Of a DNA stretch of 64,000 nt, positions 24,321-32,023 are shown piece after piece. The notes beneath the pieces were generated by a model that ran no database searches, had not been told where the DNA came from, and was given only the letters and a program-made list of their open reading frames with translations. Position 1 is the first letter of the stretch; each line of letters begins with the position of its first letter. The position numbers were made by a program, and so were the translations under genes. Source of the stretch: Pirellulales bacterium (GTDB lineage: Bacteria > Planctomycetota > Planctomycetia > Pirellulales > JADZDJ01); contig JADZDJ010000133.1 in NCBI GenBank assembly GCA_020851115.1, positions 1 through 64,000 of the forward strand. The letters run 5' to 3'.

Positions 24321-24471
24321 ACGCGGTTTCGCGCTGGCCGCAAGCGTGCCAGGCTGTATATGATGGAGAAGGATAGGCGTCGTCGCCGATGAAAACAAAT
24401 GGCGGACCGAACCGGCGGCTAGTGCGGATCATGCCATGTTCCGCCAGCGATGCGGGAGGCTTGAACACACG

Positions 24472-25005
24472 ATGTCGCCAAATCGCGCGAATAACCTTTA
24501 TCGTTTTTTTGCCGGCCTGACGGAATATGCCTTCCAATCGCGGATCGGCATCGCCGATCCGCCACTGGTGGAATACTTGACCGACTTGCTGACGCGGTTT
24601 GTCCGGCTGGACGCGGTGCTGAGCCTGCGCAGCCTTGCCGGCCGCCCGTTGAGCGAGGTCGCCGAGATGCTGTTGGAAGCCGAATCCCGCGTGGGTGACG
24701 CGCGCCGTCAAGCGCATCGGCACATCGGCGATTTTACGCTGTTTTGGACGGGTGTTTATCCCGAAGTGCTCGATCGCCTGCAACGCACTTCACGTAAGGA
24801 CTTTTTCATCGATTATTGCCAGCAGGGCAAACGGTCCTATCTGATTGCCAGCGCGATCCACACGGGCGATAGGGACGAAGAAGGCGAGGTGCTGCAACGA
24901 CTCAGCCACGACTTCGAGTTGTGCGTTTACGGGCTGGGCGAAGTCCGCCGCGAGTGGGAACGGCGCGAACCCGATGCGCCGGCGGGGCCCATTGTTTTGG
25001 ACTGA
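24472..25005 (+). CDS. Conserved hypothetical protein
   Basis: 177 residues, soluble, mostly helical, acidic C-terminus. Distinct stretches: NNLYRFFAGLTEYAFQSRIGIADPPLVEYLTDLLTRFVR near the start, IGDFTLFWTGVYPEVLDRLQ in the middle, and YLIASAIHTGDRDEEGEVLQRLSHDFELCVYGLGEVRREWE at the end. I recognise it only as a protein seen in planctomycetes; no function is known. Divergent from marR, convergent with rnhA (gap of 10 bases). GGGAGG lies 11 bases before the chosen ATG; an upstream ATG at 24436 is also possible. Confidence 0.8.
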   Translation: MSPNRANNLYRFFAGLTEYAFQSRIGIADPPLVEYLTDLLTRFVRLDAVLSLRSLAGRPLSEVAEMLLEAESRVGDARRQAHRHIGDFTLFWTGVYPEVLDRLQRTSRKDFFIDYCQQGKRSYLIASAIHTGDRDEEGEVLQRLSHDFELCVYGLGEVRREWERREPDAPAGPIVLD

Positions 25006-25015
25006 CGGCCGCGAA

Positions 25016-25501
25016 TCAGCGCCTCAAATATCGCTGATAGGCCGCCACGGCAAGTTCGTCGCAGCGGTCGTTTTCGGGATGTCCGCTGTGTCCGGCCACA
25101 CGGTTGAATTTTACGTCGTGCTGTGCGACCAAACGATCGAGTTGCTGCCACAATTCCAAGTTCTTGAGTTCGCCGCCTTTGCCGTAGGAACTGGGTTTTC
25201 GCTTCCAGCCATTGGCTTTCCACTTGGGCATCCATTGCGAAAGGCCGAGCCGGACATACTCGCTGTCGGTAAAAAGCTCGACGTGGGAACGGCGTTTCAA
25301 GGCTTCCAACCCTTGGATGACCGATACCAATTCCATGCGGTTGTTGGTCGTTTCCTGATCTCCCCCCGAGTGTTCCAGTTCCTTGCCCGATGCCGGATGC
25401 CGCAAGATAAATGCCCAACCGCCAGGCCCGGGGTTTCCGCTGCACGCGCCGTCGGTAAACAGATGAACGACCGGAAGCGAAGGCGCGGCGGTTTGAGCCA
25501 T
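25016..25501 (-). CDS. rnhA: Ribonuclease HI
   Basis: 161 residues, normal size. Degrades RNA in RNA:DNA hybrids, removing R-loops and primers. The four acidic catalytic residues are placed in LFTDGACSGNPGPGGWAF (Asp17), NNRMELVSVIQGLEAL (Glu), LFTDSEYVRLG (Asp) and ENDRCDELA (Asp), with the conserved GHSGHPEND loop. A histidine kinase gene ends 11 bases upstream on the same strand. Confidence 0.97.
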   Translation of the reverse strand: MAQTAAPSLPVVHLFTDGACSGNPGPGGWAFILRHPASGKELEHSGGDQETTNNRMELVSVIQGLEALKRRSHVELFTDSEYVRLGLSQWMPKWKANGWKRKPSSYGKGGELKNLELWQQLDRLVAQHDVKFNRVAGHSGHPENDRCDELAVAAYQRYLRR

Positions 25502-25512
25502 AGGGAGCTTGG

Positions 25513-27393
25513 TTAGACTTCCGCGGCAGGCATGGCGCGATCCAGCGTACGCTGTACTTCCTGCCGCCGCGGCCGCAAGAGTTCCTCAAAGTTGTCCTGA
25601 ATCGAGCCGTCGAGCTTGGCGTGTCCCGCGCGAGTCCACGGTAAGCGCACTGAAAAGGTGCTGCCGCGACCGAGTTGGCTTTCGACCGACACCTCGCCCC
25701 CCAGCAGTTTGCACAACTCTTTGACGATCGACAACCCCAGTCCGGTCCCGGAGTACTCCCGCGTAATCGCATCGCCTTGGGCCATCACCGCTTGACCCTG
25801 GCGAAACTTTTCAAAAATCGCCACTTGGTCTTCTTCGGCGATGCCCACGCCGGTGTCGGCGACCGTCAGGACGACTTCGTCTAAATCGCGGTCGCGACGC
25901 GCCCGCACTTCGATCCGCCCTCCCTCGGGCGTAAACTTGATCGCATTCGAGAGTAGATTGCTGAGGATCTGCTGCACTTTGGCTTGATCTTGAAATAACT
26001 CCGGCAAGCCCGGCTCGACGTCGACTTCCAAGTCAATGTTCTTGCGCTCCGTTTGCGGCTTGACGAAATCGCACTGCGCATGCACCACGTTTTCGATGCG
26101 AAAATCGCCAAGTTTGACTTCCATCTTGCCGCTTTCGATTTTCGCCAGATCGAGAATATCGTTAATCATATCGAGCAGCACGCGACCCGATTTTTGGATG
26201 TTCTGCACGTACCGCCGCTGCTTCTCATCAAGCGATTTGATCGAATCGAGCACTTCACTGAAGCCGATAATGCTATTCAGCGGCGTGCGCAATTCATGGC
26301 TCATCGTGGCCAAGAAATCGCTCTTGAGCCGGTTCATTTCATACAGCCGCATGTTGGTTTGGGCCAGCTCATCGACTTTCACGTCGAGCGTCGTATTGGT
26401 GCGTTTAAGTTCGTCCTGGATCGTCACCAGATGCCGCACCATTTTATTGAAGGCGTTGCCCAACTCTTCAAATTCGTCGGCCGTGTGAATATCGGCTCTG
26501 GCCTCCAGGTTGCCGTGCGAAATCTCCTCGCTGACATCGCGCAGATGCTTCAGCGGCTTGACGATGACATACCGCACGATGACGTAGGCGGCAATCATGG
26601 CGAGAAAAACCGTTACGATCGCCGTGGCGATGAAAATGGCGCGATTGTCGTTCAACGCTTTTCGAGTATCGACATCGGTAATGGCGATCTTAACGACGCC
26701 AAGAAGATCCCCTTCTTGCAGCGGCGCCGCACCGGGGGCCAACCCGGTCGCCAGCAAGGGATCGCTCAACGCGGCTCGGTGGCAATCGAAGCACTTGCCG
26801 CGAGCGCGAAACGCCCGATAGTAGTAATAGCGGTCTTTTTCATCGACGGGACGTTCGTCAACCGCGTCGTCGGTGGCCGCAGAGTTGGCAGGTAGGATCG
26901 ACAGCCGATTTAAGGCCGCACGATCGAGACTCGTTTCTGGGGCATTGTTGGCCTTGCGATTGGGGTCCGATTCTGGTCGAAGGATTCGCCAGGTGTATGG
27001 CTGAATTTCACTCGTCGTCCCATTGCTGTCAGTTTTCGCGCCCAAGTCATCAAGCCGCCTGGACAGCATGTCCTTATTCAAATACTCGAGGAACTTGAGC
27101 TGAAGCTGTTCATCGCCGCTCAGTTCTTGCCCAGGAACTCGACGTCCGCGGCTGATCTGCTGAGTGACATATTCGGTCAAGTGGGCCTGAAAAATAACGG
27201 ACTCGGCCAAATGCTTACAGGTATTGCGCGTATTCGTGATGACCAGCTCTTCCGATTGGCTTCCATACCACCAAAAGCTGCCGCCGATCAGCGTCAAGAG
27301 ACAAATCGCAAAGAGGGCCAAGCACTTCAGCTCCAGCCGCGTTTCGCCGAGCACGCGTTTTACCGAGCGATAGGACATGGCAGTGAGGGGCAA
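25513..27393 (-). CDS. Membrane histidine kinase with a c-type heme sensor domain
   Basis: 626 residues. Order: TM1 (about 24-44), extracytoplasmic DUF3365/Tll0287-like sensor (about 50-245) with the c-heme attachment motif CFDCH (201-205), TM2 (about 251-275), HAMP (276-328), coiled coil, HisKA with the phospho-acceptor His in MSHELRTPLNSIIGF (His about 366), and HATPase with NAIKFTPEGG, ADTGVGI and GTGLGLSIVKEL boxes. It should sense redox state, oxygen, NO or another heme ligand in the periplasm. No response regulator lies next to it. The C-terminus runs 35 residues beyond the ATPase fold. Either of two nearby ATGs may be the start. Confidence 0.94.
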   Translation of the reverse strand: MPLTAMSYRSVKRVLGETRLELKCLALFAICLLTLIGGSFWWYGSQSEELVITNTRNTCKHLAESVIFQAHLTEYVTQQISRGRRVPGQELSGDEQLQLKFLEYLNKDMLSRRLDDLGAKTDSNGTTSEIQPYTWRILRPESDPNRKANNAPETSLDRAALNRLSILPANSAATDDAVDERPVDEKDRYYYYRAFRARGKCFDCHRAALSDPLLATGLAPGAAPLQEGDLLGVVKIAITDVDTRKALNDNRAIFIATAIVTVFLAMIAAYVIVRYVIVKPLKHLRDVSEEISHGNLEARADIHTADEFEELGNAFNKMVRHLVTIQDELKRTNTTLDVKVDELAQTNMRLYEMNRLKSDFLATMSHELRTPLNSIIGFSEVLDSIKSLDEKQRRYVQNIQKSGRVLLDMINDILDLAKIESGKMEVKLGDFRIENVVHAQCDFVKPQTERKNIDLEVDVEPGLPELFQDQAKVQQILSNLLSNAIKFTPEGGRIEVRARRDRDLDEVVLTVADTGVGIAEEDQVAIFEKFRQGQAVMAQGDAITREYSGTGLGLSIVKELCKLLGGEVSVESQLGRGSTFSVRLPWTRAGHAKLDGSIQDNFEELLRPRRQEVQRTLDRAMPAAEV

Positions 27394-27524: not shown

Positions 27525-29801
27525 CTAGAGCATATCCAGCGGATCGACATCGGCCGTCCACAGCACATCGGGTGGAGGCTCAAGCCCATCCGTTGCCCGG
27601 CGAACGCATGTTCGCAGCAATTCCGCTTCCACCGCATGCAATTGCACATGAAAACGATGCTGTCCTCGGAGCTTGGCGATCGGCGCAGTAGCCGGACCGA
27701 GCACTCGCACTGCTTGCCCGATTTCGACAACCGCTTCCCGCAAGCGGTCGGCCAGATGCTGTGCAAAGCCATGCGTCGTCTCTGCCAACTTGCCGCGGAT
27801 GACGACGCGGATCATGGCGGCGGTCGGCGGATATTGATGAGCTTCGCGGAGCGGCACTTCCTGCCGCGCGAACCGATTGAAGTCGTGATGGACTGCCGCG
27901 GCAATCGCCGGATGATCGGGGTTGAAAGTTTGCACCAGCACGCGGCCACCCTTATCGCCGCGGCCGGTTCGGCCGGCGACTTGAGTGACCAATTGAAAGG
28001 TCCGCTCGGCCGCCCGAAAATCGGGCAAGTGGAGCGCCGTATCGGCGTTGATGACGCCGACTAGGGTGACGTTGGGAAAGTCCAATCCCTTGGCGATCAT
28101 CTGCGTGCCGAGCAAAATCTGCACTTTACCATCGCGAAACTGTTCTAGCGCTCGCGCGTGGCTATCTGGCCCTTTCATCGTGTCCGTATCCATCCGCAGC
28201 ACGCCGGCTTGGGGAAACCGAGCCCGGATTTCGGCTTCCAGTTTTTGAGTGCCGATACCGCCGTATTGAATGCCGCCGCTGCGACACATTGGACAGTTTG
28301 TCGGCGATGGTTCGTGATAGTCGCAGTAGTGGCAGATGGCCAAATCTCCGGCGCGATGGTGCGTCAGCGGCAGATCGCAATTGGGACAATGCACCACTTT
28401 GCCACAAGCGGGGCATTGGATATGCGTCGAATATCCGCGGCGGTTGAGCAACAACATCACTTGTCCGTCGCCGCGCAGCGCGGCTTCGATCGCCTGGTGC
28501 AGTTGCCGCGATACCGCGCCGCGCGTCGTGCGATTGCGAAATTCGAGCCGCAGATCGATCGTGCCAACCGATGGCAACGGCCGATCGAGCACCCGCCGCG
28601 GCATTTCGATCAGCCGATATTCACCTTTGACGGCACGATACCAGCTTTCGAGCGACGGCGTCGCGGAAGCCAGCACCAGCGGCACTTTCTCTTCCCGCGC
28701 CCGCCACAGCGCCACTTCGCGGGCATGATAGCGCGGCGCTGTTTCCTGCTTAAACGACCCTTCGTGCTCCTCGTCAAGAATGACCAAGCCCAATTGCGGC
28801 GTCGGCGCGAAGATCGCGCTGCGAGCCCCAACCACTACCTGGACTTCGCCCCGCGCAATGCGCTCCCAATGCCAATGTCGTTCGGCGTCGCGTAAATGGC
28901 TGTGCAAAACAGCCACACGGTCGAACCGCGAACGAAAGCGCTCGCGGGTCTGCGGCGTGAGGCTGATTTCCGGCACCAGCACGATCGCCTGACGCCCGTA
29001 GCTGATGACTTCTTGAATCGCTTGAATGTAGACTTCCGTCTTTCCGCTGCCGGTGACGCCGTGGATGAGAATGGTTTCATGACGCGGCGCGCGCAGCGGA
29101 TTCAAGATGGCGTCGAGCGCACCTTGTTGATCGGTGTTCAAGTCCCAATGCGGCTGGCGCGGAAGCCGTGGCTCGTGTTGCGAATCGGTCGAGACGCGCT
29201 CGGTTCGGACGCGGATGATTCCCTTCCGTCGCAGTGCATGGATCGGAGCGAGCGTACATTTCACGGCCTTGGCCAATTCGCGCGGCTCAAGAGGCTGTGG
29301 GCTCGCGGCCAAATAGCGGACGATCTCGAATTGTTTTTTCGCGAGATCGCCGCCCGGCAGCCGCTCGTTGGCATCCGTTGCCAACGACAACAGCGTCACT
29401 CGGCGCGTGCCCGCCCGCGCTCGCACTCCGGCCGGCAAGACCGCGTCGAGCGCCTGTCCGAGGTTGCATAAATAATAGTCGGCGATCCACTCAGCCAGAC
29501 GCAGCATCGTCGGCGACAGTAGCGGGCGCTCATCGACAACATCCACCAACGGCTTGAGCCGACGACTCACGCGGGTACGGGTTTCAAGTTTTACGCAATA
29601 TCCATCGACGATTCGATCGCCGCGCCCAAACGGCGCGCGGATTCGCTGCCCGGCATCAATCTTGGTGCGCAACGTGTCCGGCACAGCATAGTCGAACGAC
29701 TTTTCCGGCCCCATCGGAAAGATGACGGTTGCCACCGTCTGAGTCTGCGCAGCATCCAACTCCCAGGGAGCAGGGTCCGTTTCAAACAGTTGTTGCTGCA
29801 T
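27525..29801 (-). CDS. priA: Primosomal protein N' (replication restart helicase)
   Basis: 758 residues. Reloads the replisome at stalled forks. Order: N-terminal DNA-binding domain (FDYAVPDTLRTKIDAGQRIRAPFGRGDRIVDGYCV), helicase Walker A GVTGSGKTEVYIQ (about 248-260), Walker B LVILDEEHEGSFKQE, the four-pair zinc cysteines from CPACGKVVHCPNCDLPL through CHYCDYHEPSPTNCPMCRSGG, and motif VAGRTGRGDKGGRV. Upstream is the divergent nadD gene. Confidence 0.97.
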   Translation of the reverse strand: MQQQLFETDPAPWELDAAQTQTVATVIFPMGPEKSFDYAVPDTLRTKIDAGQRIRAPFGRGDRIVDGYCVKLETRTRVSRRLKPLVDVVDERPLLSPTMLRLAEWIADYYLCNLGQALDAVLPAGVRARAGTRRVTLLSLATDANERLPGGDLAKKQFEIVRYLAASPQPLEPRELAKAVKCTLAPIHALRRKGIIRVRTERVSTDSQHEPRLPRQPHWDLNTDQQGALDAILNPLRAPRHETILIHGVTGSGKTEVYIQAIQEVISYGRQAIVLVPEISLTPQTRERFRSRFDRVAVLHSHLRDAERHWHWERIARGEVQVVVGARSAIFAPTPQLGLVILDEEHEGSFKQETAPRYHAREVALWRAREEKVPLVLASATPSLESWYRAVKGEYRLIEMPRRVLDRPLPSVGTIDLRLEFRNRTTRGAVSRQLHQAIEAALRGDGQVMLLLNRRGYSTHIQCPACGKVVHCPNCDLPLTHHRAGDLAICHYCDYHEPSPTNCPMCRSGGIQYGGIGTQKLEAEIRARFPQAGVLRMDTDTMKGPDSHARALEQFRDGKVQILLGTQMIAKGLDFPNVTLVGVINADTALHLPDFRAAERTFQLVTQVAGRTGRGDKGGRVLVQTFNPDHPAIAAAVHHDFNRFARQEVPLREAHQYPPTAAMIRVVIRGKLAETTHGFAQHLADRLREAVVEIGQAVRVLGPATAPIAKLRGQHRFHVQLHAVEAELLRTCVRRATDGLEPPPDVLWTADVDPLDML

Positions 29802-30835: not shown

Positions 30836-31201
30836 CCGTGCAAGCCTCCATGTTGCCGAACCGCCGCAGCGGTCTAGCCTCGATCATCCACTTTTTCCTT
30901 GAAGCGGCGGAAACTTGCCGCGACAAAGCAGTTGCCGCCGATTGTATCGTGCCGAGCTACAGTTGCCCAGTCGAGTCCGACGATACCAAATAGTGTACTA
31001 ACCCCCTGCCAGATCAATAGTTAAGACAATCCGATCCGGCAATTCAGCCACGTTGCCAGCCTTCGGGCAACCCAGGCAGACCACGGCAATGGCGAGTGAC
31101 TTTGCCGATTGCGTAAACCACGCGACAACGGACGTTTGGAAATTCAGCAGCTAGCAGCCTTCTCTGAACTCCGGCGAAATCCCTTAGCAAGCGGAATCCT
31201 C
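30836..31201. other. 366-base gap before the second histidine kinase
   Basis: No gene-like frame, RNA gene or terminator is recognised. It should carry the promoters of the small minus-strand gene and of the histidine kinase at 31202. Confidence 0.45.
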
Positions 31202-32023
31202 ATGTCTCACCTGCCTGCCAACGATCAATTTTCGCTCGAACAGCAAATCGCGATTCTTAAAGGGCAGCTTGCTCAGGCACAGAAACTGACGGCCATGGGC
31301 GAGCTCGTTGGCACCACCACGCACGAATTCAATAACGTGCTGATGACGATCATCAACTACGCAAAATTGGGATTGCGCCATCAGGATACCGCGACCCGCG
31401 ACAAGGCCTTGGACAAAATTCTCAATGCTGCCAATCGAGCCGCGAAGATTACCAACGGCATTTTGGCATTTGCTCGAAACCGCTCGCAGTCGCTCGAGCC
31501 GACCGACCTTCGCCGCGTGATTGACGATTCGTTGCTGCTGCTCGAACGCGAAATGGTCAAGTATCGTGTGCGCGTCGAAACGCAAATTCAATCGACGCCC
31601 CTCGCGATGGCTAATGGCAATCAAATCCAGCAAGTGTTGTTGAACTTGCTCATCAATGCCCGACAGTCGATGCCTCGCGGCGGTATGATCGTGGTCCGGC
31701 TTGCTTTCGACGCTGAGGCCAACACGGTCGAACTCGGCGTGCGCGATACGGGCTGTGGAATGTCGCCCGAAGTCATGCGCCGAATTTTCGATCCGTACTT
31801 TTCTACAAAATCAGGCCCCGATGCCAGTGGAAAAGGAGGCGCTGGGCTGGGCCTGTCGATGTGCCGCGAAATTATCGAAGCACACCACGGCCGGATCCGC
31901 GTCGATAGCAGCCTTGGCAAAGGGACGGCCTTCACGATCAAGCTGCCGGCGGCAACTCCAGCGCCGCCGATGGTCGCACCGACCGTTCTGCTGCCTGCGG
32001 CGCAACCAACCCTGGGCACCTAG
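31202..32023 (+). CDS. Soluble two-component sensor histidine kinase
   Basis: 273 residues from the ATG at 31202. No membrane span or sensor domain: a short N-terminal coiled coil (FSLEQQIAILKGQLAQAQKLTAMGELVG), then HisKA with THEFNNVLMTIINYA (phospho-acceptor His in HEFNN) and a complete ATPase domain with NQIQQVLLNLLINARQSM, DTGCGMSPEV, FSTKSGPDASGKGGAGLGLSM and GTAFTIKLP. This is the NtrB/AtoS-like HEFNN subtype. The partner regulator is not nearby. The frame is open 31 codons further upstream without homology. Confidence 0.92.
   Translation: MSHLPANDQFSLEQQIAILKGQLAQAQKLTAMGELVGTTTHEFNNVLMTIINYAKLGLRHQDTATRDKALDKILNAANRAAKITNGILAFARNRSQSLEPTDLRRVIDDSLLLLEREMVKYRVRVETQIQSTPLAMANGNQIQQVLLNLLINARQSMPRGGMIVVRLAFDAEANTVELGVRDTGCGMSPEVMRRIFDPYFSTKSGPDASGKGGAGLGLSMCREIIEAHHGRIRVDSSLGKGTAFTIKLPAATPAPPMVAPTVLLPAAQPTLGT

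Follow-up and report, generated by a model that had tools for sequence, protein, structure and literature searches.

A predicted sCache_heme histidine kinase of Planctomycetia with an invariant second histidine in its sensor domain

The kinase gene and its sensor family

The gene described here lies on the minus strand at positions 25513–27393 of the window (the whole 64,000-nucleotide stretch of DNA analysed). According to the open reading frame list and translation, this interval is exactly one open frame of 626 amino acids read from a TTG codon; the forward reading of the same interval on the plus strand contains stops. Methionine 6 (residue numbers follow the TTG start throughout) was kept in 89 of 96 aligned rows, comprising the window's protein and 95 relatives after removal of two truncated sequences (L065 and L079) and one frame-broken sequence (L083). 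Because of this conservation, the kinase probably starts at the ATG at 27378 and not at the TTG at 27393, which leaves a sensor histidine kinase gene of 621 amino acids (25513–27378, minus strand). Scans around the gene found no promoter-like site, terminator predictions there were at shuffle level, and an Rfam scan returned only tRNA.

The protein is predicted to cross the membrane twice. Hydropathy placed a first span (TM1) at about residues 20–42 (27268–27336) and the hydrophobic windows of a second span (TM2) within about residues 251–282 (26548–26640), flanking a putatively periplasmic sensor domain (residues 43–250; 26644–27267). The sensor carries the sole CXXCH of the kinase protein, the heme c attachment motif CFDCH (residues 201–205; 26779–26793), and His71 (27181–27183) lies in its first helix. 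It is fused to a HAMP domain (PF00672, residues 276–323; 26425–26568), a HisKA dimerisation and phosphoacceptor domain (PF00512, residues 357–422; 26128–26325) and an HATPase_c catalytic domain (PF02518, residues 469–586; 25636–25989), all on the minus strand and all three above their Pfam cut-offs. The kinase motifs SHELRTPLN, LLSNAIKFTPEGG, DTGVGI and GTGLGLSIVK are intact in the translation; the first is the conserved H-box of HisKA and contains His366 (26296–26298). Thus, the architecture proposed in the initial annotation, in which a DUF3365/Tll0287-like region with CFDCH between two membrane spans is joined to HAMP, HisKA and ATPase domains, was borne out.

The sensor matched the Pfam Tll0287-like family (PF11845) with 27.4 bits for the whole protein and 29.6 bits for the sensor alone (cut-off 24.1). 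A six-frame genome search with PF11845 gave a lower bound on the family, because the window's kinase was absent from its matches. A sensor profile was built from 34 sensors, namely the window's and those of 33 relatives, of which 32 matched PF11845 at E up to 0.1; searched against the PDB, this profile matched Tll0287 (5b82) at E 2.3e-5. The same structure was the top Foldseek match (prob 0.99, E 4.4e-3) of a heme-free AlphaFold2 model of the sensor built from 77 sequences (mean pLDDT 79.6, pTM 0.74), followed by 3b42 at prob 0.41. In VIA-align, 5b82 formed the top row (Z 8.3, 140 residues aligned, with a large rmsd of 5.1), tied with WalK-YYCH (Z 8.1) and PctD (Z 8.0), which are Cache sensors with no heme motif in their titles; CitA and other sensor domains ranked below. 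These fold scores are middling and consistent with the assignment of the family to the Cache domains in the literature. A 2026 preprint renamed the DUF3365/Tll0287-like family sCache_heme, that is, heme-c Cache sensors, and its text reports CXXCH in 99% of the family, behaviour like that of an NO sensor for a HAMP-fused member representing fusions to signalling modules, and redox-like behaviour for a stand-alone member (Deshpande et al., PMC12889525).

On sequence grounds, the window's protein is a membrane sensor histidine kinase of the sCache_heme kind, a kind that was already known, and its periplasmic domain very probably binds heme c covalently. The initial annotation had read the protein as a periplasmic sensor kinase with c-type heme, and the parts of this reading that can be examined in sequence were supported by the Pfam assignment, the profile and fold matches to 5b82, the invariant cysteines and histidine of the motif and the CcsBA-type matches in the genome (below). 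Its reading was thus right in kind, and the kind had already been described, since PMC12889525 covers the sCache_heme family. The present analysis adds to it this published family, the invariant His71 and a conserved priA/rnhA neighbourhood.

Invariant residues and the heme motif spacer

Across residues 44–245 of the sensor, the only columns identical in all 96 rows were His71, Cys201, Cys204 and His205. The same four residues were kept in 110 of 110 further relatives taken from the stronger profile matches and in all 28 weak profile matches. The 110 include 15 duplicates of the first set and one internal duplicate, so that the two sets together comprise 190 members. This conservation of the heme motif exceeds chance.

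The distance between the two cysteines was found to vary. Among the 190 members, 154 had CX2CH, 35 had CX3CH and one (L258, CFSGGCH) had CX4CH; the 28 weak matches comprised 27 with CX2CH and one with CX3CH. The initial annotation had named lack of conservation of CFDCH in orthologues as an observation that would speak against a heme sensor. The two cysteines and the histidine proved invariant, but the exact CXXCH spacing was not universal. An apparent loss of the motif in nine relatives was rejected, as eight of them have CX3CH and the ninth, L083, has the motif and the histidine in another frame. In a quick tree computed with the motif letters masked, the spacer changed at least 12 times, a count that holds for this tree and not for proven events because its deep branches, computed from only a few hundred columns, are uncertain. 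Among CX3CH groups comprising at least three rows, support was best for five rows from one genus of family f2 (SH-aLRT 98), a clade of 15 rows in f105 (SH-aLRT 87) and two groups of three rows each, one including an f98 member (SH-aLRT 100) and the other an f3 member (SH-aLRT 92).

Such variation bears on the possibility that the heme has been lost and that the cysteines and histidines bind a metal such as zinc or persist as relics. A three-residue spacer in 35 of 190 members and a four-residue spacer in one could look like motif decay, but both cysteines, the motif histidine and His71 remain invariant whichever spacer is present. Furthermore, mass shifts reported for MmcA show heme c at CXXXCH and CXXXXCH sites (PMC11024163), and the window's genome contains matches to the attachment machinery: one frame of 1232 amino acids matches ResB (E 9.4e-10) as well as cytochrome c assembly (E 5.5e-26), as would fit a fused heme-attachment protein of the CcsBA type. 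We therefore regard loss of the heme as very improbable.

The fourth invariant residue sets this group apart from other members of the family in the phylum. When 30 other PF11845 proteins, taken from the loci with the best family matches in the phylum, were aligned together with the group, none had histidine in the His71 column. The preceding column held arginine or lysine in 28 of the 30, and the following column held histidine in two (L175 and L186), so that a histidine near position 71 is not wholly peculiar to the group. In the AlphaFold2 model, His71 lies inside a predicted helix that spans model residues 2–46 (residues 39–83) and leads out of TM1. Its strict conservation on this helix suggests that His71 is probably the second (distal) heme ligand, although an invariant histidine could also have a signalling or metal-binding role without contact with the heme.

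Between the two spans, no cysteine outside the motif was conserved in the 96 rows. Cys59 was considered as an axial ligand of the Tll0287 type because the published stand-alone protein uses a cysteine ligand. This candidate was rejected: Cys59 occurs only in the window's protein, the other 95 rows having glycine (67), alanine (26), serine (1) or lysine (1), and the relative from the same family, L285, also lacks it. Reading the fold-match ranges with equal offsets would place His71 at the site of the Tll0287 ligand; this idea was likewise dropped, given that Cys68 of Tll0287 lies outside the first helix.

Distribution and genomic neighbourhood

The sensor profile matched 239 of 248 genomes of the class Planctomycetia, representing 128 of 131 genera (E up to 1e-5), and the single match in the window's own genome was this kinase gene. 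A search for related loci kept 80 of 96 relatives of the kinase. At the level of the phylum, a search with the single sequence found a match in 19 of 294 genomes, and the profile found one in 46 of the 294, 20 of them in the class and 26 outside it, the latter all at E 1.3e-15 or worse. By our count, 17 of the 239 class genomes matched more weakly than the best match from outside the class. As the set of 110 sequences came from the stronger matches, 30 weaker class genomes including these 17 were searched again, and the frames at 28 of the 30 loci also had a kinase half 50–70% identical to the window's. The remaining two lacked a frame with a similar kinase half and were left out: L296, which lies at a contig edge, and L324, which matched at E 2.8e-6. 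At least L324 may be another protein. Because 28 of the 30 weaker matches share the kinase half, nearly all of the 239 class matches, though not provably each, are orthologues. No match was found in a search of plasmids with the sensor.

Two peculiarities were noted among the related loci. In L083, a relative with a kinase half 73% identical to the window's, sensor and kinase lie in different frames, so that either the assembly is in error or the gene is broken. Four records (L016, L019, L020 and L039) whose titles name Candidatus Kuenenia stuttgartiensis or Candidatus Nealsonbacteria carry this kinase beside rnhA, and these titles may be wrong for that reason.

The kinase gene is placed between two genes of DNA metabolism on its own strand. 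As the initial annotation had recognised, it is directly followed by rnhA (ribonuclease HI; 25016–25501, minus strand; NCBIfam PRK00203 above the equivalog cut-off), which begins 11 bases past the kinase stop, and no regulator gene adjoins it: the upstream neighbour is the primosomal helicase gene priA (27525–29801, minus strand; Pfam PriA domains), and neither neighbour encodes a response regulator. On the plus strand, an open frame of 189 amino acids without a Pfam match (24436–25005) adjoins rnhA. A second histidine kinase, which has no sensor domain according to Pfam, is encoded at 31109–32023 (plus strand). In ten related loci, its homologues (55–71% identity) lie beyond the upstream priA, with the heme kinase encoded on the other strand.

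This arrangement recurs in relatives. Of 74 loci with room for it, 70 had rnhA downstream in the same orientation, the other four showing none in the room available. For priA, 69 loci had room: it lay upstream in the same orientation in 48, or in 52 when four genes overlapping the estimated kinase start are included, and was absent from the available room in the remaining 17. These counts are not independent because many of the loci are close relatives. Among seven loci of the same order with larger flanks, six had priA and six had rnhA. In other orders of the class, 13 of 27 loci (L118, L121, L122, L267, L268 and L271–L278, from families f4, f105, f106 and f107) had mutM/fpg, the formamidopyrimidine-DNA glycosylase gene as identified by Pfam, immediately upstream of the kinase gene and in the same orientation. 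One further locus of another order (f108) had mutM/fpg adjacent on the opposite strand, and 13 of the 27 had none of priA, rnhA or mutM.

One would not expect the gene of a periplasmic sensor to be linked repeatedly to different genome-maintenance genes. The linkage could reflect mere shared inheritance of housekeeping neighbours without a functional link. A more far-reaching interpretation would be a bis-His heme kinase kept vertically throughout the class, with a flexible CX2-4CH attachment loop, whose gene travels with priA and rnhA in one order and with mutM in several other families and so ties a periplasmic redox or nitrosative signal to DNA repair and replication restart; we consider this speculative and rather unlikely.

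A partner regulator was sought as well. The initial annotation had suggested searching the genome for an orphan regulator; this search revealed 35 response-regulator domains, none of which adjoins the heme kinase, and no partner was found. Immediate neighbours were collected as 62 frames from 31 loci, chosen by length, so that some may be spurious antisense frames. Of these, 56 frames from 28 loci (27 of other orders and one of the same order) were scanned, and six from L281, L282 and L285 were left out. Response_reg was absent among the 25 families listed of the 53 in the scanned frames, and a rare adjacent regulator could be hidden because only 25 of the 53 were listed.

Proposed signalling and comparison with known systems

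From the observed domain order, family membership, four invariant residues and heme-attachment genes in the genome, we infer heme loading, ligation by His71, a course of signalling and a class of signal. One heme c would be bound covalently by Cys201 and Cys204 on the periplasmic side. Its proximal ligand would be His205 and its distal ligand His71, which lies on the helix leading out of TM1, giving a resting heme that is six-coordinate with histidine on both sides. A change in heme redox state, or displacement of His71 by NO (or CO), would free the first helix, whose movement could be passed through TM1/TM2 and HAMP to alter autophosphorylation on His366; the phosphate would then pass to an unlinked response regulator. 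We hold this reading to be reasonably probable. A precedent for an exchangeable distal ligand is GSU0935, described in PMC8396549 with His144/Met60 ligation, in which CO and NO replace Met60, and the HAMP-fused domain described in PMC12889525 provides a precedent for NO binding. For the latter protein, the same text proposes water at the distal side, and a distal histidine could weaken NO binding, which would count against the proposal.

A bis-His heme also fits a redox sensor. In the strict form of this reading, which overlaps with our preferred one, the heme reports the potential of the periplasm or the quinone pool and binds no gas. The invariant histidines on both sides are consistent with such a role, and GSU0582 and GSU0935 are described in PMC8396549 as redox-tuned, at −156 and −251 mV. 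However, these two proteins also bind CO and NO according to the same source, and a HAMP-fused relative binds NO (PMC12889525). A pure redox sensor thus seems to us a serious possibility, if a little short of an even chance.

Alternatively, the kinase could be an NO sensor of the published Cluster 2 type, with a sixth site that is occupied by water or is labile and with NO as its physiological ligand; His71 would then not ligate the iron but serve in structure or gating. For the sCache_heme-HAMP protein of P. azotoformans, PMC12889525 reports tight NO binding (koff 6.25e-4 per s) and the lack of a stable O2 complex. NO may also be met by the present organism: elsewhere in the window's genome, a single-chain NorB-like protein of 743 amino acids is encoded (C34:30639–31976; locus L294, 691–2922), with NorB cytochrome c-like and COX1 domains in Pfam; an NCBIfam scan assigned it to no family, so that its name rests on Pfam. 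NO is a plausible signal because this protein is encoded. Nevertheless, His71 is present in every aligned relative while little else is kept, which is more than a gating role usually needs, and its column has no histidine in any of the 30 other PF11845 proteins. We consider this type of NO sensor unlikely here, and redox sensing was ranked somewhat ahead of pure NO sensing.

Among characterised proteins, Tll0287 of Thermosynechococcus (5b82) is the best sequence match and top fold match of the window's sensor. It differs in being a stand-alone protein with Cys/His ligation, as described in PMC12889525. Its candidate ligand Cys68, inferred from alignments as the only cysteine outside the motif in the stretch compared, is not at the position of His71, and because the positions differ, the two residues would approach the heme from different places. 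The Geobacter chemoreceptors GSU0582 and GSU0935 (3b47 and 3b42) are also membrane receptors with a periplasmic c-heme domain, and GSU0935 has a protein-derived distal ligand, Met60, whose exchange depends on redox state, CO and NO in the account of PMC8396549. In contrast to the present kinase, they have methionine or water in place of histidine and a chemoreceptor output, and their fold match here was weak. MmcA of Methanosarcina resembles the present group in that longer spacers can hold heme c (PMC11024163), but it is a multiheme electron carrier, not a sensor, and is served by an archaeal maturation machinery (as presented in PMC9084895). The natural CX3CH and CX4CH versions found here offer material on the strictness of heme attachment in CcsBA bacteria.

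The closest comparison is with the sCache_heme kinases of PMC12889525, which share the extracytoplasmic Tll0287-like domain, the heme c motif and the attached HAMP and kinase modules; a conserved axial cysteine is also lacking in the HAMP-fused member examined in that work. Unlike the proteins presented in that text, the window's group has an invariant His71 on the first helix, a three- or four-residue spacer in 36 of 190 members compared with 99% CXXCH in the family, and a near-universal presence in one class with linkage to DNA replication and repair genes. The main text of PMC12889525, to which this comparison is confined, mentions no planctomycete, bis-His ligation or CX3CH, and our literature search found no paper on a planctomycete histidine kinase sensor with c-type heme; this class-specific variation was thus not found in the texts searched. 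The neighbourhood may give a first hint at the role of the kinase in bacteria whose signalling has been little studied. As PMC12889525 presents it, the family is split into stand-alone Cys/His proteins with redox-like properties and NO sensors that are fused to signalling modules and have an open distal site. A signalling-fused version with histidine on the candidate distal side, if confirmed, would be a third coordination type, and the window's group could show directly whether the signal is set by coordination or by fusion.
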